This document shows positions 35,780-63,975 of a stretch of 64,000 nt of DNA, piece by piece; the first letter of the stretch is position 1; each line of letters begins with the position of its first letter. Origin of the DNA: Xenorhabdus miraniensis (lineage in GTDB: Bacteria; Pseudomonadota; Gammaproteobacteria; Enterobacterales; Enterobacteriaceae); the NCBI RefSeq assembly GCF_002632615.1, contig NZ_NITZ01000003.1:248001-312000 (forward strand), in the 5' to 3' direction. The position numbers and the translations under genes were made by a program. The notes beneath the pieces were generated by a model. The model saw nothing but the letters and a program-made list of their open reading frames with translations. It did not search any database and had not been told where the DNA came from.

Positions 35780-35801
35780 GTTCGGAATTTCTGAAAATTA
35801 A

Positions 35802-36158: not shown

Positions 36159-36169
36159 AGAAAAATCCC

Positions 36170-38904: not shown

Positions 38905-38999
38905 TGGCAAATGCCAATATTAAAGGTGGCTATGGTGAAGGATATTAAGAACAAAATTACTCTGAATATAATAAATTGAAAATAAGGGAAGGAGTAGGT

Positions 39000-40049: not shown

Positions 40050-40069
40050 TATTGATTCACTCATGTTAC

Positions 40070-40105
40070 TTCACTCCCGTTGTCAGGTTAGACCGCGGGA
40101 GTGAA
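40070..40105. terminator. Hairpin between the AbrB-family gene and bcp
   Basis: TTCACTCCCG/CGGGAGTGAA, 10 perfect pairs with a 16-nt loop, between converging genes. No T-run, so it may be a Rho-type or bidirectional barrier. Confidence 0.6.
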
Positions 40106-40139
40106 TGATGCTATCTGGCTATCATTGGTTATAACTGAT

Positions 40140-40613: not shown

Positions 40614-40801
40614 CACGCATTCTCCGTTTAATCGTTTTGATTTAAATGATTTTTGTACGATAATACTGCCATATGTTCACACGTTAACATGTATATGTAT
40701 TAAATGTCATTGGTTTTAACTATTCATATGAATTTAAAGGGTTATTTCTCTCTCCTTGCCTAATGATATTCAACATTGTTCGTATGTATTCATCTTGTTT
40801 C

Positions 40802-41068
40802 ATGAAAAATGTGTACATATATCAGGATATGAACTGCATTAAAAGCGGTATTATTTTTGAGAAAATTGATCGGGCAATGACTGAACCATGGTTGTTCTCC
40901 ATCAGCGGAAAACGCCCTGAAAAAAAATGATTACCAAATCCGATAAGGACGATTTGTCTATTTGTGCTATTCCTAAAGAAAAAATTATATTTAAATTTAG
41001 GTATTGCTGGGACAGCAAAAGAGATTGAATTGATATTGGGATCTATCCAACGTCACGAAAAATCATAA
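40802..41068 (+). pseudogene. Possible degraded ORF at the cluster edge
   Basis: One reading frame stays open for 88 sense codons apart from a single TGA at 40928-40930. It directly follows an A8 tract (40920-40927), where a slip could have broken the frame. The first part reads MKNVYIYQDMNCIKSG and the last part GIAGTAKEIELILGSIQ. No family is recognised. The rest of the 550-bp stretch between bcp and the NRPS operon shows nothing but the bcp promoter region and the terminator. Confidence 0.25.
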
Positions 41069-41101
41069 TAGAAGATTAATCATATAAAAACTAATTATCT
41101 T

Positions 41102-41164: not shown

Positions 41165-44128
41165 TTAGTTTTTTCTGCCGGAATAAGGGCGAACATATTT
41201 CATGATGCAGTCAAGTTTTTCGCAAGTTTCCTGCCATTCTCTTTCTGGTTTTGAATCTCTGACCAACCCTGCGCCAGCCTGAAGCCAACAGCGTCCTTTA
41301 TGCTGATAAAGAGAGCGTAATACCAGAGCGGCATCTAATTTACCTGAGCTATCCAATAGCATGACACAACCACTGTAAAGCCGACGTGGATCACCTTCAT
41401 AGCGGGAAATGGCTTGCAAAGACGGTTTCTTTGGTATCCCGGAAGCCGTTACCGCCGGGAATAAGGCAATGAAAGCATCCCAGCGATTTTTGTCTGTTTG
41501 GAGTAATCCTTTTACCCTTGATGCCAAATGTTGTACTGAACCGCGTTCACGAATAGCCATGAATTCTGACACACAAAGCGTTTCAGCCTGACAAATCGGC
41601 GCTAGTTCTTCTAAGGCTAATTTAGCAGAAACGGCGTGTTCAGAGATTTCTTTCGGGTCAGAAAGTAAATCTGCCCGTAGCCGTTGATCCTGATCTTTGT
41701 CATGTGTCAATGCTCTGGTGCCTGCCAATGGTTGGGTGCTGACCCAACCTGAACCATCTGCTTCAACCACAGTTTCCGGGCTGAAACCGTAAGCAGAGAA
41801 ATCTTCATCACGTAAGAAGAAAGAGCGGGCGGGTGTGTTGGCTTGACGGCCCAGCCAGTAACTATGTGTCATATCGATATTTGCACCAAGCTCAACTTGG
41901 CGTGATAAGATCACTTTTTGGTAGTGACCTGCGGTAATGTCCTTAACCGCATTTGCTACGTTGTCTTGGTAATTTTTTGCGGCGTTTGCTGTGTTGGCAA
42001 TTGCCATCTCTTTTGTAGTTGGGAAATTTGTAGTTGGGAAATTTGTAGTTGGAAAAGCCGGCGTGCCTAATTGATCAGCTTGGCTGACTTTTTCTCTCAG
42101 GATGGCGATCTGAGCTTCTTCAAGTGTCCGTATCAGAACCTGACCTTGAGTTATGCGTAATTCATGCTGTGGAATGATGATTTTTATTAATGATTCGTTT
42201 TGTTGTTCTAATGGCAATCCATATGCCATATGGGAAAACTCAAATAATGTTCTCCCATAAGCACGCCAGTCTTTAACCTGAACCGCGTTGAGTGCCTGTT
42301 CAAGCTTCTGGCTTAAAGTACTGATATCATATGAATGATAATTACCTTGTGAATCAATCAATTGTCCTGCTGCATCTGCACTGATAGTTGCTGCACAGCC
42401 TATTCCCAATGACCATTCACCTTTTGCTTCATAGAGCGTACAAGGTTGTGAATTATTATCTGAAAGCAAATGCGTGATCAGATCTAACGGGGTGCTGGTA
42501 ATAGCGAGAGTGTGTTCATGATATTGTTGCATAGGGCTTCCGTGCTCTGTTTGTGCCATCTGTACTAACTGGCGTTTGTCGATTTTTCCTACTGTGGTTA
42601 AAGGCCAATACGCTACAAACAACCATTGATCAGGGATTTTATGACGCTGAACACCTTTCTGGTGCAAGAATGTCTGCATCTGTGTAGGTTCTGGTTGGTT
42701 GCCACTCTTTGGCAGGCAAGCGCAAATTCGCTCACCCAGTAGTTCATCAGGGACAGCGATGACAACTGCATCATCAATGTCAGGATGTTGCAGCAACAGC
42801 GTCTCAACTTCTTGTGTCGAAATTTTTTCACCACTGCGGTTGATCTGTTCTTTAATCCGCCCTTCAACGATCAGGTTGCCATCTGAATTCATGCGAACCA
42901 GATCGCCGGTACGATAGAATCCATCAGAAGTGAAAGCGACGGCATTATGTTGTTCTGCACGGTAATATCCCGTAATGGTGTAGGGGCCGCGTGTAATCAA
43001 CTCGCCTACCTCACCGGGTGCAACAGGTTGCAGGCTGGTATCAACAATTTTGATTTCATCCTCTTCCGACAATGGGCGTCCTTGGGTATTAATGATGACC
43101 TCATAGGGATCATCCAGCCGGGTATAGCAAAGTAATCCTTCTGCTGTACCAAATACCTGCTGTAAAGGGCCAAGGCGTGCCATGACCTGTTCCGCCAGTT
43201 CTGGTGTGAGCCTGCCGCCACCGACTTGTAAGCAGCGCAGGGATGAAAGGTCGCTTTGTTCCCAGTCGCGGGCCTGCTCCCAGAGACGTGCAAGAGCCGG
43301 TACTAATGCCAGATGTGTCACTTGATACTGTTCGATCAGCGGCATGGCTTCATCACAGCTAGCGGTATCGCTTAGGAGTACACATCCGCCTTGAGAAAGC
43401 GTACCCAGAATACCGGGACTGCCTAAAGTAAAGTTATGGGCAACAGGCAATACCGCTAAATAAACGCTTTCAGGATTTACCGAACACAGGCGGGCAGAAA
43501 GCACAAAATCATAGGTATAGGCGTCGTGAGTACGCGGAATTAATTTAGGTGTCCCTGTCGTTCCACCAGAAAGCAGCAGTACAGCAATATCGCCATAACT
43601 TGGGCCGGAAATATTGAGTGGTTTATCACCAATGGATGCCAATGCGGTAAATTCTCCGGCTTCTCCATCAACGATAATATGTTTCAGTTCGGGACATGAG
43701 GCTGCAATTTCTTGCGCCATTTCCCGGTAATCAAAGCCATGAATACAGTCAGGGATAATATAAGCGACCGGGCGCGCAATTTGGCAAAGGGCATGAATAT
43801 CATGTGCCCGTTGTGTCGGCATTAATAGCACAGGGTGAGCGCCTAGCCTGAACAAAGCAAAACAGGTGACAACAAAGGAAATGCGGTTAGGCAGTTGTAC
43901 CATGACATTATCACCACGGCGTATTCCTTTGTGGAATAACCCGCTTGCGAGCCTTTCCGCGGCTTGATGAAGTTCATGATAAGTCAGTTGCTCTTCCTGA
44001 CAGATCAGCGCCGTTTTATCACCCCAGAGACCAGACCATCCGGCAAGTTGTTGGTCCAGTGTTTTGCCATTCCAAAAATAGTCTGGCGTCATTGTTAGTG
44101 CTCTTTCTGGGATTGAAAAAAGTGCCAT
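41165..44128 (-). CDS. Fused salicyl-AMP ligase and salicylate synthase (Irp5/YbtE::Irp9/YbtS)
   Basis: One 987-aa protein combining two yersiniabactin enzymes. Residues about 1-525 form an aryl-acid AMP ligase that would activate salicylate and load it on the ArCP of the Irp2-like synthetase: A3 motif LLLSGGTTGTPKLIPRTHDAY, YRTGDL, and VGKIDKRQL with the adenylation Lys near 515. Residues about 545-987 form a chorismate-utilising salicylate synthase: HYQKVILSR (Lys738, equal to the Irp9 general base), GFSPE, QPLAGTR, ITASGIPK, LYSGCVMLLD and WLQAGAGLV. In Yersinia these are separate, distant genes. Start at 44128: ATG overlaps the previous stop (TAATG), with AGGAG eight bases upstream. A 15-bp tandem repeat expands a loop of the second half (about 691-706). 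Confidence 0.93.
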   Translation of the reverse strand: MALFSIPERALTMTPDYFWNGKTLDQQLAGWSGLWGDKTALICQEEQLTYHELHQAAERLASGLFHKGIRRGDNVMVQLPNRISFVVTCFALFRLGAHPVLLMPTQRAHDIHALCQIARPVAYIIPDCIHGFDYREMAQEIAASCPELKHIIVDGEAGEFTALASIGDKPLNISGPSYGDIAVLLLSGGTTGTPKLIPRTHDAYTYDFVLSARLCSVNPESVYLAVLPVAHNFTLGSPGILGTLSQGGCVLLSDTASCDEAMPLIEQYQVTHLALVPALARLWEQARDWEQSDLSSLRCLQVGGGRLTPELAEQVMARLGPLQQVFGTAEGLLCYTRLDDPYEVIINTQGRPLSEEDEIKIVDTSLQPVAPGEVGELITRGPYTITGYYRAEQHNAVAFTSDGFYRTGDLVRMNSDGNLIVEGRIKEQINRSGEKISTQEVETLLLQHPDIDDAVVIAVPDELLGERICACLPKSGNQPEPTQMQTFLHQKGVQRHKIPDQWLFVAYWPLTTVGKIDKRQLVQMAQTEHGSPMQQYHEHTLAITSTPLDLITHLLSDNNSQPCTLYEAKGEWSLGIGCAATISADAAGQLIDSQGNYHSYDISTLSQKLEQALNAVQVKDWRAYGRTLFEFSHMAYGLPLEQQNESLIKIIIPQHELRITQGQVLIRTLEEAQIAILREKVSQADQLGTPAFPTTNFPTTNFPTTKEMAIANTANAAKNYQDNVANAVKDITAGHYQKVILSRQVELGANIDMTHSYWLGRQANTPARSFFLRDEDFSAYGFSPETVVEADGSGWVSTQPLAGTRALTHDKDQDQRLRADLLSDPKEISEHAVSAKLALEELAPICQAETLCVSEFMAIRERGSVQHLASRVKGLLQTDKNRWDAFIALFPAVTASGIPKKPSLQAISRYEGDPRRLYSGCVMLLDSSGKLDAALVLRSLYQHKGRCWLQAGAGLVRDSKPEREWQETCEKLDCIMKYVRPYSGRKN
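42012..42056. repeat. 15-bp in-frame tandem repeat in the fused ligase/synthase gene
   Basis: Three units (tttgtagttgggaaa twice, then a one-base variant) encode FPTTN-FPTTN-FPTTK. The loop precedes the catalytic-Lys helix of the salicylate synthase. Confidence 0.92.
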
Positions 44129-44931
44129 TATGCGAACTCCTTTGAATAAACATACTGCATAAATTGCGTAATGTAATGAATAAAACTCTGTGGTTTTTGA
44201 GTAATGTAAAAATGGTCGCCGGTAATCTCCCGGCAACAATACGAAAGGTTTTGTTTGTCGCCTGCAAGCCAGTGATGCCACTGCTGAACTTCCAGAGCAG
44301 AGGCCTCTTTGTCTTCATTGCCATAAAGCAGCAACGTTGGTATTTGCAGTTTCACTGAATCCGGTTGAATGACATGGTGATAATGCTCAGTGGCAAAAAA
44401 ATCAGCACGCAGCATGGGTAAAAATAGCGCAAGTAATCCCGGATCTTCCTGTAAAATCGGGCTGCAACCACCAATATCAATCAGTTGCTCAATGAATTCA
44501 TGATCAGATAATCCACTCAACTGGCGGCGGGATTGAAGATGGGGGGCATGACACCCCGAAAGTACCAGCGCCTTGGGAAAACAGCTATGTTGTTCAAGGC
44601 GCCGGCAGGTTTCAAAAGCCACCTGAGCCCCCATACTGTGGCCGGCCAGTATTAAGTTCTCTCTTTGTGCAGGCGTGAATGACACGATCAGGTCGAAAAG
44701 TGATTGTGCTAATGGTGCAATGCTGGTGACAGCTCGTTCATTCATGCGGCTGTCACGTCCCGGATAAATGACCAGCGAAACCGCGATGTCTGAACTTTCC
44801 AGCGTGGACCATTGGCGGAATGCACTGCTGCTGCCCCCGGCAAAGGGGCAGATTAACAGGGTGTATTTGGGTTCATCATGCGTCGTCAGGCACGGACGAA
44901 TCATCGGGTGTGTAGGGAGTACCCATGTCAT
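44128..44931 (-). CDS. irp4: Type II thioesterase (Irp4/YbtT-like)
   Basis: 267-aa alpha/beta hydrolase thought to clear wrong or stalled acyl groups from the carrier domains of the synthetases. The nucleophile elbow is GHSMG (Ser99), the acid lies near YGNEDKEAS and the His in TGDHFYIT (about 244). It overlaps the neighbouring genes by single bases on both sides, indicating coupled translation. Confidence 0.92.
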   Translation of the reverse strand: MTWVLPTHPMIRPCLTTHDEPKYTLLICPFAGGSSSAFRQWSTLESSDIAVSLVIYPGRDSRMNERAVTSIAPLAQSLFDLIVSFTPAQRENLILAGHSMGAQVAFETCRRLEQHSCFPKALVLSGCHAPHLQSRRQLSGLSDHEFIEQLIDIGGCSPILQEDPGLLALFLPMLRADFFATEHYHHVIQPDSVKLQIPTLLLYGNEDKEASALEVQQWHHWLAGDKQNLSYCCREITGDHFYITQKPQSFIHYITQFMQYVYSKEFA

Positions 44932-46028
44932 CAGCGTTCTTCCTTAGTCAGCATCAGTTGGGTTGGATCAATCCAGACAGGAGCCAATAAATCTTGGGCA
45001 ACAGGCTCTCCCATAATGCGCAGAATTTGTTGCCATAAACCCGCCAGCCGCAGTTGGTAGCCGCAGGAAAAAGCGGGTGGGCAGAACGCACCATTCAATA
45101 CAGAACTCAAGGTGTTGAGTAGAAATGCCACACCTTCAGCGCCATCACATTCAAATGCTGTCATCCAGTTTTGGGTTGCCGGACAAAGAATGTGTGATGT
45201 TGTCTGGTGCAGATAAGCGCCATCCGGCTGACTGGCACTCAGGTAGAGGCTTTGCTCATTATTCAGATGATCCGGCGCATGAAGAACCGGCGTCCAGACA
45301 ACCGGGCCATAACTGGCTTCCTGCGTAAGATAACCGGCAGGCCAGATCAGCGTCATTTTATGCATAACCAGGTTGTGCATGTCTGGATCTCTGGGGTCCA
45401 GATAGGATTGAACGTTTAACGTTATCGTTGTATCCGCAGTACTGAGTTCAAAGCAATGAAATGCGTTGCTTCGCTGTCCCATATAGACTATCTCCATTTG
45501 CTCAGGGCAATGACATGCCTGTAATAACAGATCAAGTGCGGAAAATAGTAACTGGCGGCTGGTGGTCAGATAGCCACTCACCGGACGTTGCTGTGATAAT
45601 TGATTAATTTGTTGTGCCGCATGTAACCAGCTCCTGCCTGCATGGCATTGACTGTAGAAGCTATTGACCCAAAACATAGCATCATGCTTGTTAGCGACTG
45701 ATTGGTGCCTTTTGATGGCTTCTGCATCAAGGGGGTGCTCCTGAATGACAGAAATACCCCGTGCCAATAGTGCTTGGGTCAATTGGTCGCCTTTGCCGCC
45801 AATAACCTCTGCGCGTATTACGACACAGGCAATATCAATGTCGTTTGGCAATTCATCCAATGAGCGGAATAGTGGCACATTGAAATCACGGGCAAGTTGC
45901 TGTGAACGAGGACTTCCTTGCGCCAGAATACCGGCCAGTTCCAGACCTGTCCGAGGTTGTAGAAACGCATTAAGATACAGTTCGCCAAATTTTGAACCGA
46001 CAATCAGAACCCGCCGTGGCTTTATCAT
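44931..46028 (-). CDS. irp3: Thiazolinyl imide reductase (Irp3/YbtU-like)
   Basis: NADPH-dependent reductase acting in trans on the assembly line to reduce one thiazoline to thiazolidine. The N-terminus RRVLIVGSKFGELYLNAF is the Gfo/Idh-type dinucleotide fold of the YbtU/PchG family; a C-terminal substrate domain follows. 365 aa is the usual length. It overlaps irp1 by four bases. Confidence 0.92.
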   Translation of the reverse strand: MIKPRRVLIVGSKFGELYLNAFLQPRTGLELAGILAQGSPRSQQLARDFNVPLFRSLDELPNDIDIACVVIRAEVIGGKGDQLTQALLARGISVIQEHPLDAEAIKRHQSVANKHDAMFWVNSFYSQCHAGRSWLHAAQQINQLSQQRPVSGYLTTSRQLLFSALDLLLQACHCPEQMEIVYMGQRSNAFHCFELSTADTTITLNVQSYLDPRDPDMHNLVMHKMTLIWPAGYLTQEASYGPVVWTPVLHAPDHLNNEQSLYLSASQPDGAYLHQTTSHILCPATQNWMTAFECDGAEGVAFLLNTLSSVLNGAFCPPAFSCGYQLRLAGLWQQILRIMGEPVAQDLLAPVWIDPTQLMLTKEER

Positions 46029-49000
46029 ATGTTCTCCTTAACAGGTGCAATAGTTGGGGCTGAACTCAGGATGTCTTTCAGACATGCAACCAGAGAGCCG
46101 ACATGTTTATGTTGGAATAGACTGTAATGATCACCATCAAGTTGTGTCACATTGACCGGCCCGAAAGCCTGCCAGCCAAGATCAGTTGCGGTGAGTGTTG
46201 TTGGATCAAGGTAATCCATAAAATCAGGTAATGCCTGCGCTGCCCGGATAAGGCAGAAAGGTTGTGAAGTTTGCGGTGGGCAGTAGCCAAGCAATGCACT
46301 CAGGTTATGGCGCCATACGGCATAAAGTGCGGTCAATGAGCCGTCAATCTGTGCAGATTGCGGCAAGGCTTCGTGCAGAGCCTGAAGGAATGCCTCCGTG
46401 TTAGCAGCGATAGCGCTGTTATCCAGCTTCAGGTCAGGGAATTGTCCCTGTAAGTCGAGCAGGAAATGACGATGGCAGAATGTATCGTTCAGAGTCAGGT
46501 CAGTGCGTACGTTCGGCGCGAAACTATCAATCAGGATACAGTGAGAAACACTTTCACCCGCAGTTCGTAACTGATGCGCCATTTCATAGGCTACCAAGCC
46601 ACCGAAAGACCAGCCCGCCAGTGCATAAGGCCCTTTAGGCTGGAAGGTACGGATTTGGTTGATATAGTTAGCGGCCAGCGCTGCAACGGAAGGCTCACCG
46701 ATATTCAGGCTGTCTGGTGCAAATGCTAACCCAACTATACATTGAGAATTGAAATTAGCTGCTAAATGGCGATACCCCAGTAAGTGCCCGCCAATAGGGT
46801 GTACGATGAACAATGCAGGTTGCTCTGTGTTTCCCTTGTTCAGTATCACACTCTGACATGTGTTTTCCGGTTGATGTTCAATGAATTCAGCCAATGACTG
46901 TACGGTATCGTAAGTTTGCAGCAGGCTGAGCGGGTATTGGCGATTAAATGCCTGATTGATTTTCACCATTAATCGCACTGCCGCCAGAGAATCTCCACCA
47001 AGAGTAAAGAAACTCTCATGTACGTTAATAGCTTGTTGCTCTAATACGGATTCCCAAAGGCTTAATACAGCTTGTCCTGTTGCGTTGAGAGTCGCCGTCA
47101 GTGGCACTGAATTAATTTCTTGCGCTTTTTCAACCAGAGTAACTAATGTGCGTCTGTCAATTTTACCGTTGTCTGATACAGGTATCGCATCAAGAATGAT
47201 AAATCGCTGTGGGCACATCCAAACAGGTAAGGTTTGCTGCAACCAGTGAGGCAGTACCGGTAAAAGTTCTGTAGATACTGGCGTGTCGCCGGTTAAACGC
47301 AAGCCTGCGACGAGTTGCAATGCGCCGGTTGACGTAGTATGTGCAAACACTAACGCTTGTTGTATATCAGGGTGTTCGCATAAACGGTGCTCAATTTCGC
47401 CCAGCTCAATCCGGTAGCCACGAATTTTAATCTGGTGATCATTGCGTCCCAGAAATTCGATATTGCCGTCCGGCCGCCAGCGGCCTAAGTCGCCAGTGCG
47501 GTAAAGTCGCTCACCTGTTTGAGGATGCGTGATAAATGCCTGTTCAGTTTTTTCTGAATCGGCCCAATAACCCTGCGCCAGCCCTTGTCCGCCAATATAA
47601 AGTTCACCGGTTACCCAGACCGGGCAAGGTGAAAGTGAGGGATTAAGCACATAGAAAGTCTGATTAGCCAAAGGCTTACCATATGGAATGCTGCGCCAAT
47701 TTGGATCAACTTGTGCGATAGGATAGGCGATAGACCATATTGATGCTTCGGTGGCACCTCCCAAACTGAGAAGATTTAGCTCAGGGTGGAGAGCATATAA
47801 TCTTGCCGGCAAATGGGTTGGTACCCAATCACCGCTCATCAAGATCCAGCGCAGACTATTCAGGGAATGCGGATAGCTTCGGGCGTATTCCTCAAGCAGT
47901 TGCACAAATGCCGGAACAGAGTTCCAAACTGTCACCGCTTCCTGTTGTAACCATGCCAGTAACTTGTCGGGTTGCCGACTGTCACCAGGAGAAGGCATAA
48001 CCAGCTTCGCCCCACAACTCAAAGTGCCGAACAGGTCATAAACTGAGAGATCGAAGGTTAACTCTGATATTGCCAGTACGCTATCGTGTTCATTGAGTGC
48101 AATGCGTTGGTTAATATCAAGGATAGTGTTGACCGCACCCTGATGATCGATCATCACACCTTTCGGTTTTCCGGTAGAGCCGGAGGTGAAAATCACATAA
48201 GCTAAATCTTCAGGATGTGCGAATAAACTCTGCTCGCCAGTATTTACCGGTAAGCCGTTAAGTAATGTTTCATCCAGAGAGATAACTTGTACCGCGTCAG
48301 ACCCGCTCATCTGTTGAGCAAACTTAGGTTGAGTCAGTACAGTATCAACTTCCCCTGATGTTAATAGCTGATGGATACGTTGTTGCGGATAACTGGCATC
48401 AATAGGCAGATAAGCTCGTCCCGCTAATAAAATCGCGAGAACCGCTACAACCTGTTCCCAGCCTTTTTCCATCACCACACCAACCAGAGACGAAGTCTGA
48501 TTTTCCTGCGCTTGCAGATGAGCAGCCAGTGCCAGGCTTTGTGACCACAAAGTGCGATAATCAATCTGACGAGCGGTATCGACAACGGCAATGTGTTGTG
48601 GGTAACGGTTTACTGCCTGTTCAATTAGAGAACAAAGTGTATGTGGTGGAAAACTGTTTTTTGTCGCGTTACTGTTCTGGCACAAAGTGCGATCACTTGC
48701 CGGGAGCCAGTCAGGAAGCGGAGCGTTCCATTGATAATCCGGTTCGAGCAGGGCAATGACACTGGCTTGATAATGAGCAAACATATTTTCTGCAACTTGG
48801 GGCTGGAACAGTTGCGGCAAAATCGCCCATTGTAGGGTGACGCCACCATCTGAACCGGAAATGAGCATACAGTCGAGATAAACATGGGGCGTTTGCGCAC
48901 CAAAAAGATTCAGTGTCCCTAATCCTGATGGCCCTTTGCCCGCCGTACCGGTTGTATCGTTGAATACGATTGGCATTCCGGCATTCAGGTTGTGGCGATG

Positions 49001-52000
49001 CTGATTTTTCTCCCTGAGAACCAGTTGCCCGTCAAACAGCGCATGTTGAAGATCCGCTAGCCATTGTTTTTGTATCCGGCTCACTGCATCACTGAATCCT
49101 GCGATATTGCGTAAATCCACTTCCAGCAACGACGTGGTGGACAGATTGCCGACTAACATATCGCAATGCTGTGGCATCAACAGGCGGTTGCCATGCAGAA
49201 CATTGATAGTGAAATGCTCGTTATTGCTCCATACCGACAAAATATGGGCAAATAGTGTGAGCATTACTTGTGATGGTGATACCCGATGTTCTGCCGCACG
49301 TTGTTGCAAACGCTGCCATTGTTGTGGGTTGATGTACCCTGTCAGGCATTGTTGATCAAGTTGCTGTGATTGATGGTCTTTCAGTGGTAACACCGGAGCA
49401 TCAGGAAGCAAAGGTAAGCGATCAAGCCAGTATTGCCGGCTTTGTTGCCAGGTTTCTCCCACTTTTTCATCTTCCAGTGCTTGAATGTAGTCACCAATAG
49501 TTGCGGCTGGTGGCGCTGGTTGCCAGTTAGGTTCCTGATACCAGTGGTGTAAGTCACGCAAGATTAACGTCAGACTTTTCCCATCAGCTACCAGTAGATC
49601 GATGGTCAGATGCAATAGATGTGTTCGGTCATCAGTATGATACAACGTTAAATCAAACAGCGGCCAGTTGTCGCTGGGAACGCCCTGAGTACGCAGGATG
49701 TCACGGGCATTATCCAACTGTGTCTCACGCTCGTTCGGCATCATGTCACGGCAATCAATGACCGTCGGTGTATAACAGGAAACCTCCGGCAGAATATGAT
49801 ACTGACCATCCTTCACATAACCGCGTAATTGCGCATGATGGTTTATCACCCGGTTCCAGGCAGTGGTGAAACGGGGCAGATCAAGACCGTTGATAGCCAG
49901 TTCAGCATAGAAATGGGCGATACCGTTACCAAATTGGAACAGTTCACTTTCTCCCAACCAGTAAGCGTATTGCAGTGCGGTGAGTGGCAAAATCTGCTCT
50001 GATGCTGGTTCAGCTGCATGTGATTCAGTTGAATGTGATTCAGTTGAATGTAATGTAGTAAGTGTCGCTGAATTTGTTTCGACTACCTTCAGGGTACGGC
50101 AAAATTCACTCAACTTAGGATGTTCGAATAACTGTTGCAGATTGGCTTGTTCATAACCTTGGCGCCGTAGTTGCACCACCATTCGGGTCGCAATTAAGCT
50201 ATCACCGCCACTTTGGAAAAAGTCACTGTAGCGTTGTATTGGTTGAGGAAGCAGTGAATTCCAGAGTGCAATTACTTGCTGTTCAATATCATGGAGCTGA
50301 TCATCCTCTGTTTCCGGCTGTGCTGTTTCCGTAGTCAACGGTTGTACCATGCTCTCTTTCGCTGTCACTATCAGCGGTAATGCTGTCAACGGTAACTGCT
50401 CTTGCTGTTGAATATGCAATGAATAAGGCAAGGTGGAAAATTGTGCTGCGATTTCACTGATATTAAGCCGTGCTTGTTGTTCAGCCCGCGCCAGAATCAG
50501 TTGTTGATGCAGTTCTGGCCCGTCTTGCCCCGGCCATTCCAATGAAACCCGATAACCGGACTTCTCCAGACATTTACGCCAGTCTGTAAGTTCCAGCAAC
50601 GCGCTATCACCCCGATCGTCACTCCAGGCATTAATGCCTTCAATAAATCCGACACTGGCGAGCTGCATAGCGCTTTCGCGTTTAGTGGATTCAATGATCA
50701 ATAGCCATCCGCCCGGTTTCAGTAACCGTGACAGACGTTGCAGGGTATTTTTCAGATGGATGGCATCATGTAATACGTTAACCGCCATAATCAGGTCATA
50801 ACCCGATTCAGGATGCTGGCTGAAATCGATACGCTGGTTAATGTCGAACAGGGCAAATTTTACAGTTTCGCCATAGTGATTGAGTAACTGGCGTGCATCA
50901 TCCAGAAACAGCGGCGAAACATCAGTAAAGTGATAGCTTGCAATGGATTGTGCATTGTGTTTGAGGACTTTTTCTGATGTGGCTCCCGTTCCTGCCCCCA
51001 CTTCCAATATGGTGAAATGTTCAGATGTCTGACTTAATTGTTGGATAATTTCAGCCGCAGCTTGGTTCAGGCAACGCAATGCCGGGTTCTCACTGTAGAG
51101 GCTGGCTGTCGTCTGTTTATCGGCAAACAGAAGTTCCAGTGCATTGCTTCGTCCGGCAAGCAGGGTGTCATGTTGCTCAATACAGGTTGCAACATATCGG
51201 CTGATGGTTTGGCACCACACGGCATCATCCAGTTTTGCTGTAGGAGCAGGCATATGGCTAAGCGGCTGCAAACAGCGGTATCCGTCAGCGGTTTTTTCAA
51301 TCAATCCGTGATGGGTTAATAACGTCAGCCATTGGGTAAGCAGGCGCCGATACTGTGGTGCAAGTTGCAGGCGTTGTTCGATCTCTTCACGAGCGTGACA
51401 TTGTTGCGGATAGGTGAATAGGCTATGGCGCAGCAACGTCTGGCTCAGGCCAAATAATGCTTGTTGCTCAATGTGTTGCCAGGAGCGTTCAAACGACTGT
51501 TGTTCTGTTAACGTCGGCAGAGGTAATACATCGGTATTGATAATCAGCGGTTCTGGCAGTGATAGCGATAAATTATCTTCTGCAACCAGCCATAAGTTAT
51601 AGCCTTGTGTCTCGTCCTGATGTGGCCGAATTTCTGCCAATCGTATTTCAGGTTTAGCACGCAGGTTTTGCTCAGCCTGACGCAATTCAGGATGCTGTGG
51701 CCAGAAGTCATAGCGTGTATAGCCAGCAGGTGGTATATGCAGGTCATAACATTCCATGTGTTCAGGCTGGCGGCAAATTTGCACTAACAGCGCGTTATAA
51801 GCGGCAAACAACGCTTCAATGACACCCGGCTCTAGCACATCATCCATGCAATACCAGTTAAACAGTAAATCACCATCAACTTCCATGACCTGATGATCCA
51901 GCCAGACTTGCGGCGTCTGGCTCAGAACAAAGACCGGATCACCGAGTAATTGAGTGATGGATTGTTTGATTGCGACACCTTCCTGTGCCATCCCCAACAT

Positions 52001-55000
52001 ACTGGTGAAAACGACCGGCGTCAGTGGTTGTCTGCTTTGAGATTCGCCATTTTGCTGGCGTCCAAGTTCCCGCAATACCTCAACACCATTGACATGGTTA
52101 TGACTCAACCGTTGCCAGAGCAAAGCCTGTGTTTTTTCCATGCTGGCACGCAAGGAAGTTGTCTTGCGTAAATCAAAATCCATCAGCATGACTGAGGTAA
52201 AATCACCGATCAGGTTCTGAACCTCTGGATGGAAAGGCTGCCGGTTAAAGAATGTCAGGTTGAGGGTAAACAGCGGATGGCGGCTGTACCATTCAAGCGT
52301 ATGGGCAAACAGAGTCAGCAGGCCGGCAGAAGATGTCACACCCCATTTTTTCCAGCTTTGTTTAAGTATCTGCCAGTCAGATTGTGCCAGCCGACCTTCA
52401 TAAGTCGTGAATTGTGGCTGACTGCGTTGGGGCAGTTGTGGGTTCAACGGCAATTTTGGGGCAGGGGACAGTGAAGGTAATTGCTCCTGCCAGTATGACC
52501 ATGATGCCCGCCATTCTTTACTTTCACGTTGCGCTTGTTCTGCCATCACGTAGTCACGGAAAGTAAATGCTTGTGGCGCCAGAGGTTGCTGGCGATAAGC
52601 AAGTTGCAGATCGTCCATCATGATCCGGAAGCTCTGTACGTCAAACTGCAACAAGTCCAGATTCATATGTAAGCGGCAACGTTCATTGGGGAGCAACGAA
52701 ATCGAGACTTCAAACAGCGGCCACTGTTCCGCGGGCGGTACTTGATAGGAAAGGGTATGACGACGCTGAGCCAAAGCCTGTTCGCAGGCTGTATCGTCCA
52801 GCACTCTCAAATCATCCTGTGATAAAGCATACCACGGTGTTTCAGGCAGAATTCTTTGTTGTCCCTCTTCATCCACTACCATGCGCAACATGCCATGACG
52901 CTGAATTAAAGCATTCCATGCTTTCTCAAAGCGCTGGATATCAAAATTATTCAGTGCCAGATCCCATTCAAATAAGACATGACAAGCTACACCGCCAAAA
53001 TCAATGGCCTGGGTACGACCAATCCAATAAGCGTGTTGAATTGGCGTCAGAGGGAATGGTGCATGACGTTGGGAACTGTCAATAATGAACTCAGGTTGAG
53101 AAGAAACCGCCGATTGTTCAGGCAATGCGTCTCCAATAAGTGCATTAAGCCCCTCCAGCGTCATATTCTTATAAGCCTGTTCAGCGGTTAGCCTGATGCC
53201 AAATTGCTGGTGGATAACCGTATTCAGATCAAGAAACAGCAGGGAGTCCAAACCGAATTGCAGTAAATCCTGTTGTAGTTTCAGGTGATCAGGCTGTTCT
53301 AACCGTAATAATGTCGCGACACGCTGACGTAACCAATTGAGCCGTTGTTCACTATCTTGATATAGCGTGTTATCGGCAGAAGGTGAAGATGCAGATGTTG
53401 CAGCCATATGGGTAATATCGGCCTGTAAACGCCGCAAAATATCAGGATGATGTTCATCTAACCGCATTGCCAGATAGCAAGGTGATGTAGTGCGCAAAGA
53501 CTGGTTGAAATGCCAGATACCCTCATTTACGCTGAACGGTAACATGCCATCTTGTGCCAGTTTTTCCACTAATCGCCGATCGCTGGCCATACCAATACCG
53601 CTCCAAACGCCCCAAACCAACGCTTTTACTGTCAACTGATTTGGCGCTGTCAGCGCTAAAGATTCCAAACAAGCATTGGCGATTGCATAAGCGCCTTGTC
53701 CTTGAGCACCCAACATTGACGCGGCAGAAGCGTGAAGCAGCAAATATCGTGCATTATGTTGCTGGAGCACGGCTTGCAACGCCGATGCACTGTGGGCTTT
53801 TACAGATAACATCTGTGACAGGTGTGGACGCCCAAGTTCTGTCAGCCGGGTATGATCAGCGATACCTGCCGCATGGATCGCTCCGGCGATATCATCCTCT
53901 TGTGCCAGTGTTTGCACGGCGTCTAACAAGGCTGGCGTATCAGTAACATCAACGTTAATCCAACGTATTTCACATTCGATACTCAGTGACAACTCTTGTA
54001 CAAAAGCATCCCAGTCCGTGTTTTTTCGGCGGGCAAACACGGCAACCTTACGCACGCCTTGGGTCAGCAACCAACGGATGGAAATCTGACCGATACCGCC
54101 CATACCGCCTGTAACAATATGCCAACCCTGATGGGGAATCGACATAGGTTGTTGCGATAATGCCAATGGCTGACGTTGTAAAACAGGTACAGAGACTTGA
54201 TTCCCGCGTACTCTCAGCCAGCAATTGTGTTCATGATGGCGTTTATCCAGATAACCAAATGCCAGTGATAAAGCGGCTGCGTCGTTGATATCAGCGATAT
54301 CAATCGCCTGAATATGGCGATGGGGATACTCTTCAACCGCAACGCGTAGCAACGCCCAAACAGCGTATTGAGCCGGGTTGATATCCGCTTTTGATAACGT
54401 GCTTTCTGGTTGTGCGCAGCAGGTTATAACGGTTAAAGTCGCTGTTTCATCACGTTTTAATTCACTAATAACCTGATCACATAATTCAACAACATCATTG
54501 CCTTGGAGCAGTAGTATTGTATTCCCGCTTTCAGGCTGTAAATTAATCCCCGCCTGACGCCAATGATGAATAATTTCATCATTCGCAGTTGAAGAGCGGA
54601 GGGTATATGCCGTTGAAGATCCCGGTTTATTCGCCGTGTTTATGGTACGCCAATGTAGGGCATAGTGTGTATCAGGGCAGGGCTGTGGCGCAGGAAGCCA
54701 TGATTTTGTTATGGGTTGGGTTGCCACAACTTGGCGAGGAAGATCAGCACGATCGCTCAACAGAGCGAATAAACGTTCGCCAGCATAAATCAATGCAGGG
54801 AAAGCCGCGAGCAAATGGCTCTCTAATGATCGGCGTTTGGCATATGGCAGGGCGCGGAGAGGACGATACATTTTACTTACCGTCGGCCCGAAAACTTCTT
54901 GGTAATAACCTTGCTGGACACTATACGTCAATAATTGTTCCAGCAAAAAGCGCCAGCAAGGTTGCAGCCGGCCAGCCCGGATAGTGTCGATAGCACTGAA

Positions 55001-57796: not shown

Positions 57797-60700
57797 TGTG
57801 CAGCTCCTTTATGACGTTTTTCCCGTTGTTGCAGACGCTTTTGTTGTTGACGCTGGCGAGGAGTCATCGACGGGTGATTCCCTTCGCAGGAATCTTTTCG
57901 GCAGCGTAAGCTGAGTGTCTCTGGTGTTGGATAAGCGAATAAATCAGTAACGGCAAGATGATGAAAACCCGCATGTTGTAATTTGCCGTGTAGTTGAATT
58001 AGCTGTAGCGAGTTAGCTCCAGCCTCAAAAAAGTTTTGTTGGGCATTGATAGGATGATTTGTTACAGATAAAAACAGGCGCTGAATTTCACAGCATGTTT
58101 CACTGCCTATTATTTGTGGCTCGCATCCTTCCGAACGCGGTGATGGTGTAATAGCAACAGAAACGTTATCTTCAGGCGTCAGGCATTGCTGGCGTGGCAT
58201 CAGTTGTTCCAACGCTGAATGCCAGCTTTCTGGCTGTGCTGCGAGGGTACGCAATAACGCCATATAGCTGTTGAACATGTTTTGTAACTGATGTGGTTCA
58301 AATAATTCTTCGACCGCATCCCAGTTCAGACAAAGCTCATTGTCAGATTCATAAACCTGATGATCCAACCAGATTTGTGGGGTTTGCGAGATGCCCCAAA
58401 CGGGTTTCATCCATGATGAACGTGAAAGGAATTGCCCTTCATGTGTCCCCAATGCGCTGGTGAAAACGACCGGCATAATGGCTGCATCAGGGCCACGACT
58501 CTGTGCCAGCTCACGCATCACTCTGATCGCTGAAATATGGCGGTGATCCAGATCCTGCCATAATTGTTGTTGCAGCCGCCGTGTGCTTGATAACCAATCG
58601 TTTTCCGGGTGCCACGCCAGTAGGGACAGTGAAGTAAAATCACCCAGAATATGTTTAATGTCCTCATGCCAGTGCGGGCGATCGAACAGGGTAAGATTGA
58701 GGGTTAACTCCGGTCTGGTGCTGAATGCGGACAGAACGGCTGCATAAGCTGCAATTAAGAGCGCAGAAGGGGTTATCTGATGGGGCGCAGCATATTGCTT
58801 TAACTGATCCCATTCATGAGCAGATAATCGGTCGCTATAGCGCACAAAACGCGGAGATTGAACGCCTTCCGGTGCAATGCGCAATGGCAATTGCGGTGCC
58901 AGCGGCAATGTTCTTACCTGCTCCTGCCAATATTGCAGCGAACTCTGATGCGCTGACGTTTGTTGCTGGCGTAACACACAATCCCGGAATGTGACTTTCA
59001 GTGGCGGCAATTCGTGTTGTTCGTCGAGATATAGCTGTTCTAATTCAGCCAGCAATATCTGCATACTCAGCCCATCTAATAACAAATTATCCAGACTGAC
59101 AAATAGCCGGGAAACAAGCTTGTTGTCTTGTGCAAGCTGAAAATCGAACACTGGCCAGTGGCTGGCATCCAAAACCTGATGTGACAGACGGTCGCGTAAT
59201 GTGTCTGCCTCACTAATATCAGTAAATTGGTGCTGTTTAACCGAAAATATTGAGACATCTTGCAATATCTGTTGCTGTCCATTGATAACAATCGTTCTAA
59301 GCACAGGATGACGCTGGATCAGGTGATTTAACACCCGGTTAAGACGTTGAACGTCTAACTGTTCTATCCGGTATTCGATAAAGAAATGTGCCCCAACACC
59401 ACTTAGGGCAAAACCAGGATGGCGTCCAACCAGATAGGCTTGCTGAATTTCAGTTAATGGGAACGGCTGATATTCATCCTGTTCTTTTGGTATTGAATAG
59501 GGTTCTGATGAAGTTTCAGACAGAGGAACCAGTGTAGCGGCAAATGCAGTCAATTGCGGGTTACGGAAAAGATGCCCAAGTTCGCCTTTGAAACCTTGTT
59601 GTGTCAGTTCACCAATCAGACGCGTAGCCAGAAGACTGTCACCGCCAAGTTGAAAGAAGTCACTGTTACGGCCTAACAGCTCTGTATTTAGCAGGCGTAA
59701 CCAAATATTGGCAACGATTTGTTCCACCGCATTAAATGAGGCCACTTCATGCTGATGTGGCATTTCTGTTTTTGTGACAGGCTGTATGGCTTGCGATAGC
59801 GCCTTACGATCAATTTTGCCGTTAGGGGTTAGCGGCAAACGAGGAAGAATATGCAAACGTTGTGGGATCATATATCCCGGCAGATGTTGCGCCAACACAG
59901 ATTTAATTTTTTCCCGATCAGGGATCATGACGTTGTCACTTACCTGCATCAATAACACACTAAGATTACCGATAGTAATTGGTGTTTCCGTTTGTAGTGG
60001 AAGAAGAGGTAACCACTGCGATGCAGAACGTAGTTGAATACCGTGAGGTGAGAGCAGTTCAGTTGTAATCAAAGAGAGGGAGGAAGCTTGTTGCAACTCC
60101 ATTGCCAATACCAACGCACCTGGTTGTGCCAGGGGGAGCAAAGCGTTAATGCAATTTGCTGGATCTTCCTCACGGTGTAATACATTGTTTAGCAGGATGA
60201 TATCTGCCTGATGCTGTAGCGACTCAGAAATTTGTTCTGACCAATATTGCACTGATGCGTGAGTATAACCACTTAACCGTGTCTGCATCTGGTTGATCAG
60301 TGCCTGAGAACGTTCAAAACCGAGATAAGACAGATGCTGGTCTGTAATATGTTCTGCCAGCCACTGAGCACAGAAACCGCTGCGGGCATCGAATTCCATC
60401 AAAGTTACAGGGCGTTGTAATCGTTGGGAGAGAGCAACGATTACCTGTTTTAATCCTGCCAACCATTGCTGGGTTTCTGGCAGTGCGAAGAGCTGTTGTT
60501 CCGGTGCGAATTGCGGATCATCGAGCAATGTGACTGCTGTCTGTTGTCCGGTAAGAATACTGTGTAGTACAGAATGCCAGCGTTCGGGGATACATCCTGC
60601 TTCACTATTGAATATAGTGGGGGTATTGAATGTAGTGGGGGACACGACGATCTGATATACATGATGTGTGGACTCAGCCAATAGATTACATTGGCAAAGA

Positions 60701-63700
60701 TACGTCAACATACGGGCAAACCAGTTATGGTATTCCGGTTGAGCCTGATAATATTTCAGACAATCGCTGAACGACTGGGGTGAAGTAAACGTCATGCCGT
60801 GACGTGACAGATGTTCCAGCAGAAATAGTGCAACTTGTGGCTCACTGTTATCATCGGTTATTGCCCGCGCTGCGGGAAACAGATCACGATAGTTTGTGGG
60901 TAATTGTGGGGCACGAGTTACACGTTGGCATAAAGTATCGCCTTCCAACTCAAGGAATGCCACCAGCGATTTCTCTTTTTCGCCATGAGCTAAGGCAACC
61001 CCTTTATTGATACCGATTACTTGATTGAGGGCCGCATCAATTTCTCCTAACTCAATTCGGTAGCCACCAATTTTCACCTGGCTATCGCGGCGTCCCATAA
61101 ATTCAAGCCAGCCTTCGGGATGGTAGCAGCCCAGATCACCCGTACGGTACCAGCGCTCTCCCTGATCAATGACAAATTGGGCGGAAGTGCGTTCTTCATC
61201 ATTAAAATAGCCTAATGCTACACCGGCACCACCAATCCAAAGTTCACCGACAACCCAGTCAGGACAATCACGGCCATCTTCACCCACTACACGGTAACGT
61301 TGGTTAGCCAAAGGATAACCATAAGGAATAGAGCGCCATTGTGCGTTAATCCCTTTGACGATGTATTCATTCGACCAGATAGCGGCTTCCGTTGCACCGC
61401 CCATCGCACTTAACACACCATCAGGATTGAACGCACGGTAACGTTCAGGCAGTGACAAGCCGATCCAGTCCCCGGATAACATCACGGTACGAAGAGCTTT
61501 CGGCGCATCTACCTCCATCCCTTCGCAATAGGTTAGTAACATATCAAACAATGCCGGCACGCTATTCCATAACGTAACATTGTGCTGCTCGATCAGCATT
61601 TCCCAGGTTGATGGGTCGCGGCGCTGGGCTTCGTTAATTAATACCAGCGCCCCTCCGGCACTGAGGATGCCGAAAATATCATAAACGGAGAGGTCGAAAT
61701 GCAGGGCAGAGAGTGCCAACAATCGGTCACTGCTTTGAACATGATGACGGTGATTGATGTCCAGACAGGTATTAAGTGCGCTTTGATGGCTGATAACCAC
61801 ACCTTTTGGCATTCCGGTTGAACCAGAGGTATAGATGATATAAGCCGGATCAGTCACGGCACGTTCAGCCATGTTTGCTAAAGGCAGTAATTGCTCATTC
61901 TGATGCCAGGAAATGCAATGTATATCTTGTGACCAAGAGCTATTTTGTAACCAAGAACTATTTTGTGACCAAGAACTATTCTGTGACCAAGAACTATTCT
62001 GTTGTTCAGAGTCAATAATAACAACATTGATCCCGGCACTTTCACAGATAACACGACGTCGGTTTAAGGGTTGATCGAAAGGAACCGGGACGTAAACACC
62101 GCCAGCATAAAGTATTGCTAATACAGCGACAATTTGTCCGATACCTTTTTCCATACTAATGGCAACCCGATCTCCCGGCATAACCGACATATTTTGCAGT
62201 ACAGCGGCTAATCGGCGGGCTGCCAGACTGAGTTCGCCATAACTCATTTTGTTATTATGAGTCACCAAAGCAACAGCATTGGGTGTGCGTTCTGCCTGTA
62301 TGAACACCTCTTCATGCAGCAGGGCATTGGGTAGTGTTTTAACCGTGTTATTGATTTGGTGCCGCAAATGGGATTGCGATTCGGGCATCAAATCTGGCAG
62401 CTTTTGGTTCCACTGCGCCGCGTTTTCCGTCAGGTTTTCAATCAGTTCCTGATAGGCGGTGAATAAGGTATCCATTAAGCCATCAGGAAAGAGTTCATCG
62501 TTGCTGTCCCACTGAATATTCAGAGCGTTTTCATGCTCAAATGCAACGAAATCCAGCCATACCTGAGGTGTTTGTGATATTCCCCAACTTGGTTTTCCCA
62601 GAACATCACGGGTATTTTCACCATATAAAGGGCGGCCTAAATTGCTGGTAAACACAATGGGTGCGCCGTGTGGATGGTTGCCTCGTTTCTTGAGTTCACG
62701 CAGAACTTCTACACCAGACCAGTGACGATGTTCGTAAGCTTCGGCAAATGTTGCCTGTGCATCCTGTGCCAATTGGCAGAACGGTAAATTATCACCAGGA
62801 ATATCCAACAGCAGAATGTTGGTAAAATCGGCCAGCATGTTATCAACTGCGGTATGCAGCGGAGCCCTGTCAAATAGCGTTAGGTTGAACAACAAGCGTG
62901 TTGCACTGCTCCAGCGACATAATAAAGCCGCAAATGCGGTCGCCAATGACATCGTTGGCGTAACCCCATTTTGTTGGGCGAGCTGCTTAAATCGTTCCCA
63001 ATGTTCTGGCGCTAAACGAAAACGTCTGCGCTGAATCAGGACATTTTTTATTAGGGCAGGGTCTTGAGCCAAAGGCAGTTGAGGAGCAAGTGGCAGAATG
63101 TCTAACCGGTTACGCCAGAAGACTTCTGCTTCTTGTCGGGCCTGCTTAAATTGGGTCTGATATTGTGTTAGATAACTGCAAAAATCATAGCCAGAAGGAA
63201 TTGCAGGCAGGCTACGTTTGGCAATTAATGCTGCCAGTTCGGTAAAGAATAGACTGAAACTGGCAGCATCCATGATCAGTAAATCGATATTGGTATGCAG
63301 ACGATGTTGATTATCACCAAACAGACTAAGCTGAATATCGAAAGTTTCTCCTTCTTCAACTTGTAATACCCGGTGACTGAGCTGTTCACGTAGGTTGTTC
63401 AGCGCTTGTTGCTGTTCACTTACTGCCAGATTACGTAGATCGTGAACAGTGAGTTTTTTCCAGTAAGCACTGGTCATGCCTTGTTGACGGCCATCTGGCA
63501 AAAAACGAACGCGCAACATCGGATGCCGTTGAATCAGTACATGAATCGCCGCTTCTAACTGTTCAGGTTTCAGCCCAACACCATCAAATTCCTGATACAG
63601 ATGGCATCCGACTCCCCCCAAGGTTTGTTCCGGTGAACGTCCAACAAAATAAGCATGTTGGACTGCCGTCAACGGGAATGGATGGGCATCTGCAATCAGT

Positions 63701-63975
63701 GGCTGTGGAGCTGTATCTTGCGGTACTGTGTGAGCAACAGGTGTCTGGCGTTGTAAAAGCTGGCTCCAGGCATGCAGGGTTGGTTTTTGGTAAAGTTCGC
63801 GCAAAGTGACGCGATGCCCTTGACGTCTAAGCTGGTTCAGCAATGCCATTATTTGCATTGAATCCAGCCCCTTGCGAATTAAATCGTCATTATCGTCCAC
63901 CAGAATATTTTTTTGATTAAACAGACCAGATATGAGCTGGCGCAGCGAATCTAGGGAGAAAAGGTCCGTGTGCAT
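57793..63975 (-). CDS. irp2: Irp2/HMWP2-like non-ribosomal peptide synthetase
   Basis: 2060-aa first synthetase of the line, collinear with HMWP2 (about 2035 aa). Order: aryl carrier domain (Ser39 in GLDSM), Cy1 about 95-520 (DLLIMDAAS), A domain from about 545 (YTSGSTGMPKG near 715; cysteine-type pocket stretches FDLSVYD, WNSVP, MLSGDWIG, GGATEAAIW), an embedded methyltransferase-like domain about 1010-1370, the A-domain end with GKIDRKAL, PCP1 (Ser near 1447), Cy2 about 1485-1930 (DNLLLDGLS) and PCP2 (near 1989). It should make salicyl-thiazoline-thiazoline and hand it to Irp1. The ATG at 63975 has AGGA seven bases upstream; the C-terminus overlaps irp1 by four bases. The embedded domain has lost its glycine motif. 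Confidence 0.94.
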   Translation of the reverse strand: MHTDLFSLDSLRQLISGLFNQKNILVDDNDDLIRKGLDSMQIMALLNQLRRQGHRVTLRELYQKPTLHAWSQLLQRQTPVAHTVPQDTAPQPLIADAHPFPLTAVQHAYFVGRSPEQTLGGVGCHLYQEFDGVGLKPEQLEAAIHVLIQRHPMLRVRFLPDGRQQGMTSAYWKKLTVHDLRNLAVSEQQQALNNLREQLSHRVLQVEEGETFDIQLSLFGDNQHRLHTNIDLLIMDAASFSLFFTELAALIAKRSLPAIPSGYDFCSYLTQYQTQFKQARQEAEVFWRNRLDILPLAPQLPLAQDPALIKNVLIQRRRFRLAPEHWERFKQLAQQNGVTPTMSLATAFAALLCRWSSATRLLFNLTLFDRAPLHTAVDNMLADFTNILLLDIPGDNLPFCQLAQDAQATFAEAYEHRHWSGVEVLRELKKRGNHPHGAPIVFTSNLGRPLYGENTRDVLGKPSWGISQTPQVWLDFVAFEHENALNIQWDSNDELFPDGLMDTLFTAYQELIENLTENAAQWNQKLPDLMPESQSHLRHQINNTVKTLPNALLHEEVFIQAERTPNAVALVTHNNKMSYGELSLAARRLAAVLQNMSVMPGDRVAISMEKGIGQIVAVLAILYAGGVYVPVPFDQPLNRRRVICESAGINVVIIDSEQQNSSWSQNSSWSQNSSWLQNSSWSQDIHCISWHQNEQLLPLANMAERAVTDPAYIIYTSGSTGMPKGVVISHQSALNTCLDINHRHHVQSSDRLLALSALHFDLSVYDIFGILSAGGALVLINEAQRRDPSTWEMLIEQHNVTLWNSVPALFDMLLTYCEGMEVDAPKALRTVMLSGDWIGLSLPERYRAFNPDGVLSAMGGATEAAIWSNEYIVKGINAQWRSIPYGYPLANQRYRVVGEDGRDCPDWVVGELWIGGAGVALGYFNDEERTSAQFVIDQGERWYRTGDLGCYHPEGWLEFMGRRDSQVKIGGYRIELGEIDAALNQVIGINKGVALAHGEKEKSLVAFLELEGDTLCQRVTRAPQLPTNYRDLFPAARAITDDNSEPQVALFLLEHLSRHGMTFTSPQSFSDCLKYYQAQPEYHNWFARMLTYLCQCNLLAESTHHVYQIVVSPTTFNTPTIFNSEAGCIPERWHSVLHSILTGQQTAVTLLDDPQFAPEQQLFALPETQQWLAGLKQVIVALSQRLQRPVTLMEFDARSGFCAQWLAEHITDQHLSYLGFERSQALINQMQTRLSGYTHASVQYWSEQISESLQHQADIILLNNVLHREEDPANCINALLPLAQPGALVLAMELQQASSLSLITTELLSPHGIQLRSASQWLPLLPLQTETPITIGNLSVLLMQVSDNVMIPDREKIKSVLAQHLPGYMIPQRLHILPRLPLTPNGKIDRKALSQAIQPVTKTEMPHQHEVASFNAVEQIVANIWLRLLNTELLGRNSDFFQLGGDSLLATRLIGELTQQGFKGELGHLFRNPQLTAFAATLVPLSETSSEPYSIPKEQDEYQPFPLTEIQQAYLVGRHPGFALSGVGAHFFIEYRIEQLDVQRLNRVLNHLIQRHPVLRTIVINGQQQILQDVSIFSVKQHQFTDISEADTLRDRLSHQVLDASHWPVFDFQLAQDNKLVSRLFVSLDNLLLDGLSMQILLAELEQLYLDEQHELPPLKVTFRDCVLRQQQTSAHQSSLQYWQEQVRTLPLAPQLPLRIAPEGVQSPRFVRYSDRLSAHEWDQLKQYAAPHQITPSALLIAAYAAVLSAFSTRPELTLNLTLFDRPHWHEDIKHILGDFTSLSLLAWHPENDWLSSTRRLQQQLWQDLDHRHISAIRVMRELAQSRGPDAAIMPVVFTSALGTHEGQFLSRSSWMKPVWGISQTPQIWLDHQVYESDNELCLNWDAVEELFEPHQLQNMFNSYMALLRTLAAQPESWHSALEQLMPRQQCLTPEDNVSVAITPSPRSEGCEPQIIGSETCCEIQRLFLSVTNHPINAQQNFFEAGANSLQLIQLHGKLQHAGFHHLAVTDLFAYPTPETLSLRCRKDSCEGNHPSMTPRQRQQQKRLQQREKRHKGAAQ
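60607..60642. repeat. 18-bp in-frame duplication in irp2
   Basis: Two units (attgaatatagtgggggt and a near copy) encode PTIFNS and PTTFNT in a loop of the domain embedded in the A domain. Confidence 0.75.
61928..61999. repeat. 18-bp in-frame tandem repeat in the irp2 A domain
   Basis: Four units near tgtgaccaagaactattc (positions 61928, 61946, 61964, 61982) encode NSSWSQ four times (one NSSWLQ). They lie at about residues 659-682, some 50 residues before the nucleotide-binding A3 motif, in what should be a surface loop. The Yersinia protein has no such insert. Confidence 0.93.

Follow-up and report, generated by a model that had tools for sequence, protein, structure and literature searches.

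A photoxenobactin (pxb) cluster beside bcp in a Xenorhabdus close to X. khoisanae: a described assembly line with signs of lateral movement

Introduction

Photoxenobactins and piscibactin are yersiniabactin-like iron-binding compounds of insect-killing nematode symbionts (PMC9177418, PMC9396620). The corresponding gene cluster, pxb, was named in these two papers (Shi et al. 2022). In Xenorhabdus szentirmaii DSM 16338 its products are prepiscibactin, piscibactin and photoxenobactins A-E, and three differences from the yersiniabactin (ybt) cluster have already been described: a bifunctional PxbJ, a PxbG without the cMT1 domain, and an additional Cy4-A2-T6 module (PMC9396620, PMC9177418). We report here on a 64,000-nucleotide stretch of Xenorhabdus DNA (the window), in which positions 41165-63975 carry a cluster of this layout. 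The unusual layout is real and the system is already known, so that this locus is one further copy of a described cluster.

Results and Discussion

Gene order, domain architecture and identity of the cluster

Gene and domain calls were made by Pfam, NCBIfam and PDB sequence searches together with scripted motif positions. Five open reading frames (ORFs) lie head to tail on the minus strand in the order pxbF-G-H-I-J, all of them open and with overlapping stops and starts (Table 1). The ORF list gives pxbJ as 41165-44281, starting from a GTG that lies inside pxbI; the ATG at 44128, in a TAATG junction with pxbI, is the likely start and gives a protein of 987 amino acids (aa), versus 984 aa in X. 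szentirmaii. PxbJ scores above the TIGR03494 cut-off for salicylate synthase and has salicyl/dihydroxybenzoate-AMP ligase matches within the same ORF. Over the whole assembly line the motif script located six carrier serines and four Cy motifs (DxxxxDxxS), of which three and two, respectively, are in PxbF (Cy motifs at aa 231 and 1629). PDB sequence matches in PxbF are to HMWP2 (7ry6) at residues 87-534 and to Irp2 (7jtj) at 1492-1918, and the methyltransferase matches within its A1 domain reach 29.6 and 22.9 bits, slightly under the Pfam cut-offs. In PxbG, Pfam recognizes one each of KS, AT, KR, AMP-binding, TE and methyltransferase domains, two condensation-type domains and three carrier stretches. 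A further in-frame tandem repeat, besides the two listed in Table 1, is found in PxbG at 50009-50051.

Table 1. Coordinates of the features identified in the window
Feature	Position	Strand	Details
pxbF (irp2/HMWP2 homologue)	57793..63975	-	2060 aa; ArCP(T1)-Cy1-A1(methyltransferase-like insert)-T2-Cy2-T3
pxbG (irp1/HMWP1 homologue)	46025..57796	-	3923 aa; KS-AT-KR-T4-Cy3-cMT-T5-Cy4-A2-T6-TE; Pfam and motif positions
PxbG KS and AT	55370..57763	-	aa 12-387 and 537-809; KS TACSSS/EAHGTGT/NIGH, AT GHSVGE
PxbG KR	53600..54127	-	aa 1224-1399; GGMGGIG, AYAIAN; AT-KR interval without cMT1, unlike HMWP1
PxbG Cy3	51758..53053	-	aa 1582-2013; DLLQFDVQS
PxbG cMT, homologue of the C-17 methyltransferase	50546..51064	-	aa 2245-2417; GAGTG intact
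PxbG Cy4	48746..49990	-	aa ~2603-3017; DLLVADGKS at 2733; match to HMWP1 Cy domain
PxbG A2	47162..48622	-	aa ~3059-3545
PxbG T6	46880..47074	-	aa 3575-3639; Ser3603
PxbG TE	46079..46816	-	aa 3661-3906; GWSFG; Ser3730
pxbH (irp3/ybtU), thiazolinyl imine reductase	44931..46028	-	365 aa; TIGR01761 above cut-off, PF21390
pxbI (irp4/ybtT), type II thioesterase	44128..44931	-	267 aa; PF00975, GHSMG and GDH motifs
pxbJ, salicyl-AMP ligase (irp5/ybtE type) fused to salicylate synthase (irp9/ybtS type)	41165..44128	-
18-bp in-frame tandem repeat in PxbF A1	61923..62002	-	4.4 copies
15-bp in-frame tandem repeat in PxbJ	42012..42056	-	3 copies, shortly before the chorismate-binding Pfam match
Junction	40714..41100		left side follows the X. 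khoisanae bcp region, right side X. khoisanae pxb (other contig)
CyaR small RNA	10383-10471		Rfam gathering search
TPP riboswitch	7871-7963		Rfam gathering search

The pxb locus of X. szentirmaii DSM 16338 (L016 in our set of loci) allows a comparison at the level of single residues. Its PxbG, counted from the ATG, has 3986 aa, and all nine residues mutated in PMC9396620 land at their stated numbers, which identifies this ORF as the published PxbG. Every one of the nine is kept in the window PxbG: G2267, G2269 and G2271 of the cMT, S2533 of T5, D2733 of Cy4, D3249 and K3545 of A2, S3603 of T6 and S3730 of TE (in the alignment, D2733, D3249 and K3545 correspond to D2771, D3287 and K3583 of X. 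szentirmaii). The two proteins are 81.5% identical over 3902 aligned residues, and identity to the other full-length copies is 84.5-90.4%. The cluster is thus pxb by its gene content, its architecture and its conserved catalytic residues, with pxbF to pxbJ consecutive and in order, no cMT1, Cy4-A2-T6 present and a bifunctional PxbJ.

A first-pass annotation of this DNA, made from the letters alone, had already read the gene order irp2-irp1-irp3-irp4-irp5 at the coordinates found here, the lack of a polyketide synthase (PKS)-type methyltransferase (Pfam and BLASTP with HMWP1 agree), the extra Cy-A-peptidyl carrier protein module before the thioesterase, and the irp5-irp9 fusion. Its guess that the locus might be the Xenorhabdus/Photorhabdus pxb cluster was correct, and its expectation that the product departs from yersiniabactin in both chain length and methylation is in line with what has been published for pxb. 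It had further presented the cluster as a rebuilt assembly line. The rebuilding is real but not new to this genome, since it is that of the published pxb and is partly shared by a Vibrio cluster (L029, see below); when the architecture was compared with pxb, piscibactin-type and yersiniabactin clusters, an identical layout proved to be already assigned to a known product.

Several points weigh against reading the locus as a pxb cluster that makes piscibactin and photoxenobactins in this strain. The repeats in PxbF A1 and PxbJ, whose expansion is seen in none of the 21 compared relatives, could impair both proteins, judging from their position in the sequence. The window ends 25 bases before pxbF, so the receptor and transporter block that precedes this gene in the relatives falls beyond it. 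Finally, pxb was called silent, from transcript and protein data, in wild-type P. luminescens TT01 (PMC9177418). The repeat expansions are what a decayed, non-functional copy retained by chance might show, but none of the five ORFs is interrupted, PxbG retains the nine tested residues, and the remaining motifs searched for are there too, which makes decay very improbable. We are almost certain that the cluster is the pxb of a Xenorhabdus near X. khoisanae, and that it would make piscibactin and photoxenobactins. The products, the release chemistry and any metal-binding or virulence role in this strain are predicted here after the work on X. szentirmaii and Vibrio.

Proposed biosynthesis and fate of the fourth cysteine

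By analogy with these systems, salicylate would be made, activated and loaded by PxbJ. PxbF (front half) would incorporate two cysteines in cyclized form, PxbH would reduce one of the two rings, and the PKS module of PxbG would add one unmethylated malonate. No gem-dimethyl group is expected in the product because cMT1 is absent. A further cysteine would be added by Cy3/T5 and C-methylated by the single cMT; inactivation of this cMT in X. szentirmaii resulted in the loss of piscibactin and of photoxenobactins C and D (PMC9396620). Cy4-A2-T6 would then attach a fourth cysteine through its sulfur, as a thioester, leaving the ring unclosed, and cleavage would release products that end in a dithioperoxoate, thiocarboxylate, carboxamide or carboxylate; for the first three, C-S or C-N cleavage is proposed. 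Deletion of pxbI in X. szentirmaii merely lowered the titres (PMC9396620), and the Vibrio anguillarum homologue of PxbI, Irp4, was required for piscibactin (PMC9408133).

The first-pass annotation had expected four cysteine-derived rings, should every module act once. An assembly line yielding a single full-length product with four thiazoline-type rings would fit the DxxxxDxxS motif kept in all four Cy domains and the two residues of A2, shown to be important in X. szentirmaii, that are retained here. However, the PxbG of X. szentirmaii has the same tested residues and turns the fourth cysteine into a sulfur terminus only. There, photoxenobactin C takes up four 34S and converts into the other products, and Cy4 is proposed to form the thioester only, the fourth cysteine giving the dithioperoxoate or thiocarboxylic terminus (PMC9396620). 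In Vibrio anguillarum the proposed end product, photoxenobactin E, is likewise a thiocarboxylate. The four-ring expectation is therefore unsupported, and such a product is most improbable. By analogy, the product would contain four cysteines but three rings, four rings being unlikely.

Insertion site and relatedness of the host

The ppk gene of the window is 97% identical at the DNA level to that of X. khoisanae and 84-86% identical to those of five other Xenorhabdus searched; the host is itself a Xenorhabdus, with X. khoisanae as a near relative. Identity to X. khoisanae is 95% over window positions 1-12000 and 91% over 35000-40713, versus only 86.9% over pxb (41100-64000). In X. khoisanae, bcp is followed by gcvR-like and dapA-like ORFs (named from reading the sequence, with no family search) with no pxb between them (L041), and pxb is located on another contig. 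A close-relative search returned 27 pxb loci, all from Xenorhabdus or Photorhabdus; this search reaches close relatives only, and three of the 27 are one repeated X. hominickii stretch. Neither bcp, nor a gene of the AbrB-duplication family, nor perM was found in any of the 27 loci within the 2.5-8.7 kb covered beyond pxbJ, so the window pxb occupies a site that none of those relatives shows. The ybt island integrates at tRNA sites. No tRNA genes were found in the window, and integration at such a site is thus unsupported on the visible side.

Signs of horizontal spread

Identity at fourfold-degenerate sites was compared for 55 pairs among 11 genomes, which include those of 10 of the 27 loci, with ppk as the sole housekeeping gene. 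In the 28 cross-genus pairs, mean identity is 33.2% for ppk versus 57.9% for pxbF and 56.8% for pxbJ. Within Xenorhabdus (21 pairs) the corresponding means are 55.1, 61.2 and 61.0, and within Photorhabdus (6 pairs) 64.6, 64.3 and 65.0. The order is reversed between the window and X. khoisanae, with 90 for ppk, 67 for pxbF and 75 for pxbJ; ppx agrees with ppk in the ten comparisons that involve the window. A slower synonymous rate in pxb would lift the within-genus figures alike, but Photorhabdus shows no lift and Xenorhabdus one of only 6 points. The contrast between pxb and ppk at these sites points to horizontal spread of the cluster between the two genera. Taken with it, the position of pxb beside bcp here, versus elsewhere and diverged in X. 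khoisanae, points to lateral movement.

In a PxbF+PxbH tree with midpoint root, all ten Photorhabdus fall into one group together with the window and X. khoisanae (Shimodaira-Hasegawa-like approximate likelihood ratio test, SH-aLRT, 98). This tree and a PxbG tree including HMWP1, both of them quick builds, differ, and neither fixes the direction of transfer or the nearest neighbour of the window. No report of pxb transfer between the two genera was found in the searches made of the open-licence literature, and the word 'horizontal' does not occur in PMC9177418 (supplements not covered in either case).

Distribution and natural variants

The recurrence of the cluster in the relatives shows that its layout is no product of chance: PxbF, PxbG, PxbH and PxbJ are present in 27 of 27 loci, and an ORF holding pxbI in 25, in two of which it is fused to pxbJ. 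The latter are X. vietnamensis and X. japonica (L012:26112-29873, L021:25252-28998), where the in-frame fusion gives a thioesterase-ligase-salicylate synthase of about 1250 aa. The same four genes precede pxbF in all 27 loci, encoding in X. khoisanae (L002) a TonB-dependent receptor, a major facilitator superfamily protein and two ABC transporters, and the genes after pxbJ vary. Of 41 genomes drawn around the nearest one, 18 have a PxbH match at E <= 0.001. All 18 are among the 25 congeneric genomes, a number that counts the nearest one too, and the 16 genomes from outside the genus have none. Identity is 81-94% in sixteen of these matches and 35-42% in the other two. Two apparent oddities were discarded. 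The three pxb copies of X. hominickii DSM 17903 (L009, L015, L019) share 100% identity across at least 58 kb of sequence that takes in the flanks, in an assembly whose contamination is given as 7, and likely represent assembly redundancy. The apparently longer proteins at L021-L023, L025 and L026 are only long matches due to tblastn grouping.

The remaining methyltransferase of PxbG has been lost in some Photorhabdus. In P. heterorhabditis (L023:16018-26514) most of the cMT stretch is gone and a scrap remains, while P. noenieputensis (L025:16030-26457) and P. caribbeanensis (L026:16030-26487) have in common a clean loss of the residues equivalent to 2032-2459 of the window protein. Pfam scans of two of these proteins, from P. 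heterorhabditis and P. caribbeanensis, gave no methyltransferase match at E <= 0.001. The two deletions differ in their boundaries and sit in different clades, which implies at least two losses of cMT. These PxbGs are comparable to the cMT mutant described in the literature, whose products are all unmethylated. In the two species with the common clean deletion, the middle of pxbI is deleted as well, including the GHSMG nucleophile (L025:27549-27815, L026:27582-27848). In X. innexi PxbG (L013), the third cMT glycine (G2309 of X. szentirmaii) is an alanine, unique among the copies that retain the domain. Searches of the open-licence literature, supplements not covered, returned no report of a pxb without cMT.

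Taken together, we lean towards regarding pxb as a movable cassette. It would have crossed between Xenorhabdus and Photorhabdus after their split, entered this genome beside bcp independently of the X. khoisanae copy, and shed its last methyltransferase at least twice in Photorhabdus. Under this reading, the natural products of P. noenieputensis and P. caribbeanensis would be limited to the unmethylated compounds (prepiscibactin and photoxenobactins A and B). By itself, the window cluster extends a published family by one genome. Of somewhat greater weight, as modest new leads, are the signal of horizontal transfer between these two genera of insect pathogens and the variants without cMT.

Rest of the window

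Positions 1-40616 are mostly ordinary chromosome, with best NCBIfam matches to agcS, an aroP-like gene, pagP, thiD, mdtABC-baeSR, ppk-ppx, purMN, upp-uraA, hda, bepA and bcp. The ORF at 33724-34590 has no family match. No Rfam families were found in the window besides the CyaR small RNA and the TPP riboswitch, both far from pxb.

Comparison with known systems

The yersiniabactin cluster was represented by an E. coli plasmid record (L028), in which HMWP1, YbtU, YbtT and YbtE homologues occur in the same order as in the window. In this record irp2 is split over two frames (L028:2271-8410) and is absent from the gene table. By BLASTP, the window PxbG aligns to HMWP1 in two long colinear pieces (7-1014 to 22-1038, and 1033-2575 to 1370-2900) at 43-52% identity. 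Residues 1039-1369 of HMWP1, i.e. cMT1, have no positional counterpart in PxbG; the sole match within that stretch (960-1272) is the other methyltransferase of PxbG. Conversely, PxbG 2603-3563 (Cy4-A2) sits between the last shared carrier and T6-TE, where HMWP1 is empty, and Cy4 matches HMWP1 solely through an earlier Cy domain. The window thus has Cy4-A2-T6 inserted before TE, a module that HMWP1 lacks; there is no TE directly after a single Cy-MT-T module as in ybt. In E. coli ybtE stands as a separate gene, unlike the fused pxbJ, and YbtS is presumably encoded elsewhere in the ybt locus. The 5' end of pxbF gave no BLASTN match in E. coli genomes. That the window holds a true ybt cluster is, despite the homologous genes in matching order and the colinear HMWP1 alignment, essentially excluded by this domain content, and every close relative that the search returned is a pxb cluster.

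The Vibrionaceae irp/piscibactin type was represented by one cluster, that of Vibrio sp. THAF191d (L029). Its Irp1 homologue of 4000 aa (irp1 at 6080-18079) has KS, AT, KR, one methyltransferase, two Cy, one A and TE domains, and aligns in a single piece over PxbG 1094-3910, with 42-50% identity over the main pieces. It differs in having four carrier stretches versus three in PxbG, with two near-identical carrier motifs in tandem after the methyltransferase, which itself lacks GxGTG. The Vibrio cluster also has the extra module and no cMT1, so it is the pxbJ fusion that marks pxb against it: there, the salicylate synthase and the ligase each have a gene of their own, and the two follow one another in the order opposite to that of the fused domains of PxbJ. 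Separate irp9 and irp5 genes, as in the piscibactin irp high-pathogenicity island (irp-HPI), are not found in the window. Similar ligase-synthase fusions exist elsewhere, e.g. in Pseudoalteromonas sp. NC201, where the fusion lies beside other nonribosomal peptide synthetase genes.

The closest described system is the pxb of X. szentirmaii, with five genes in identical order and the same three departures from ybt. The window copy differs from it by a protein identity of 79-84% (BLASTP), a different chromosomal site and the two in-frame repeat expansions.

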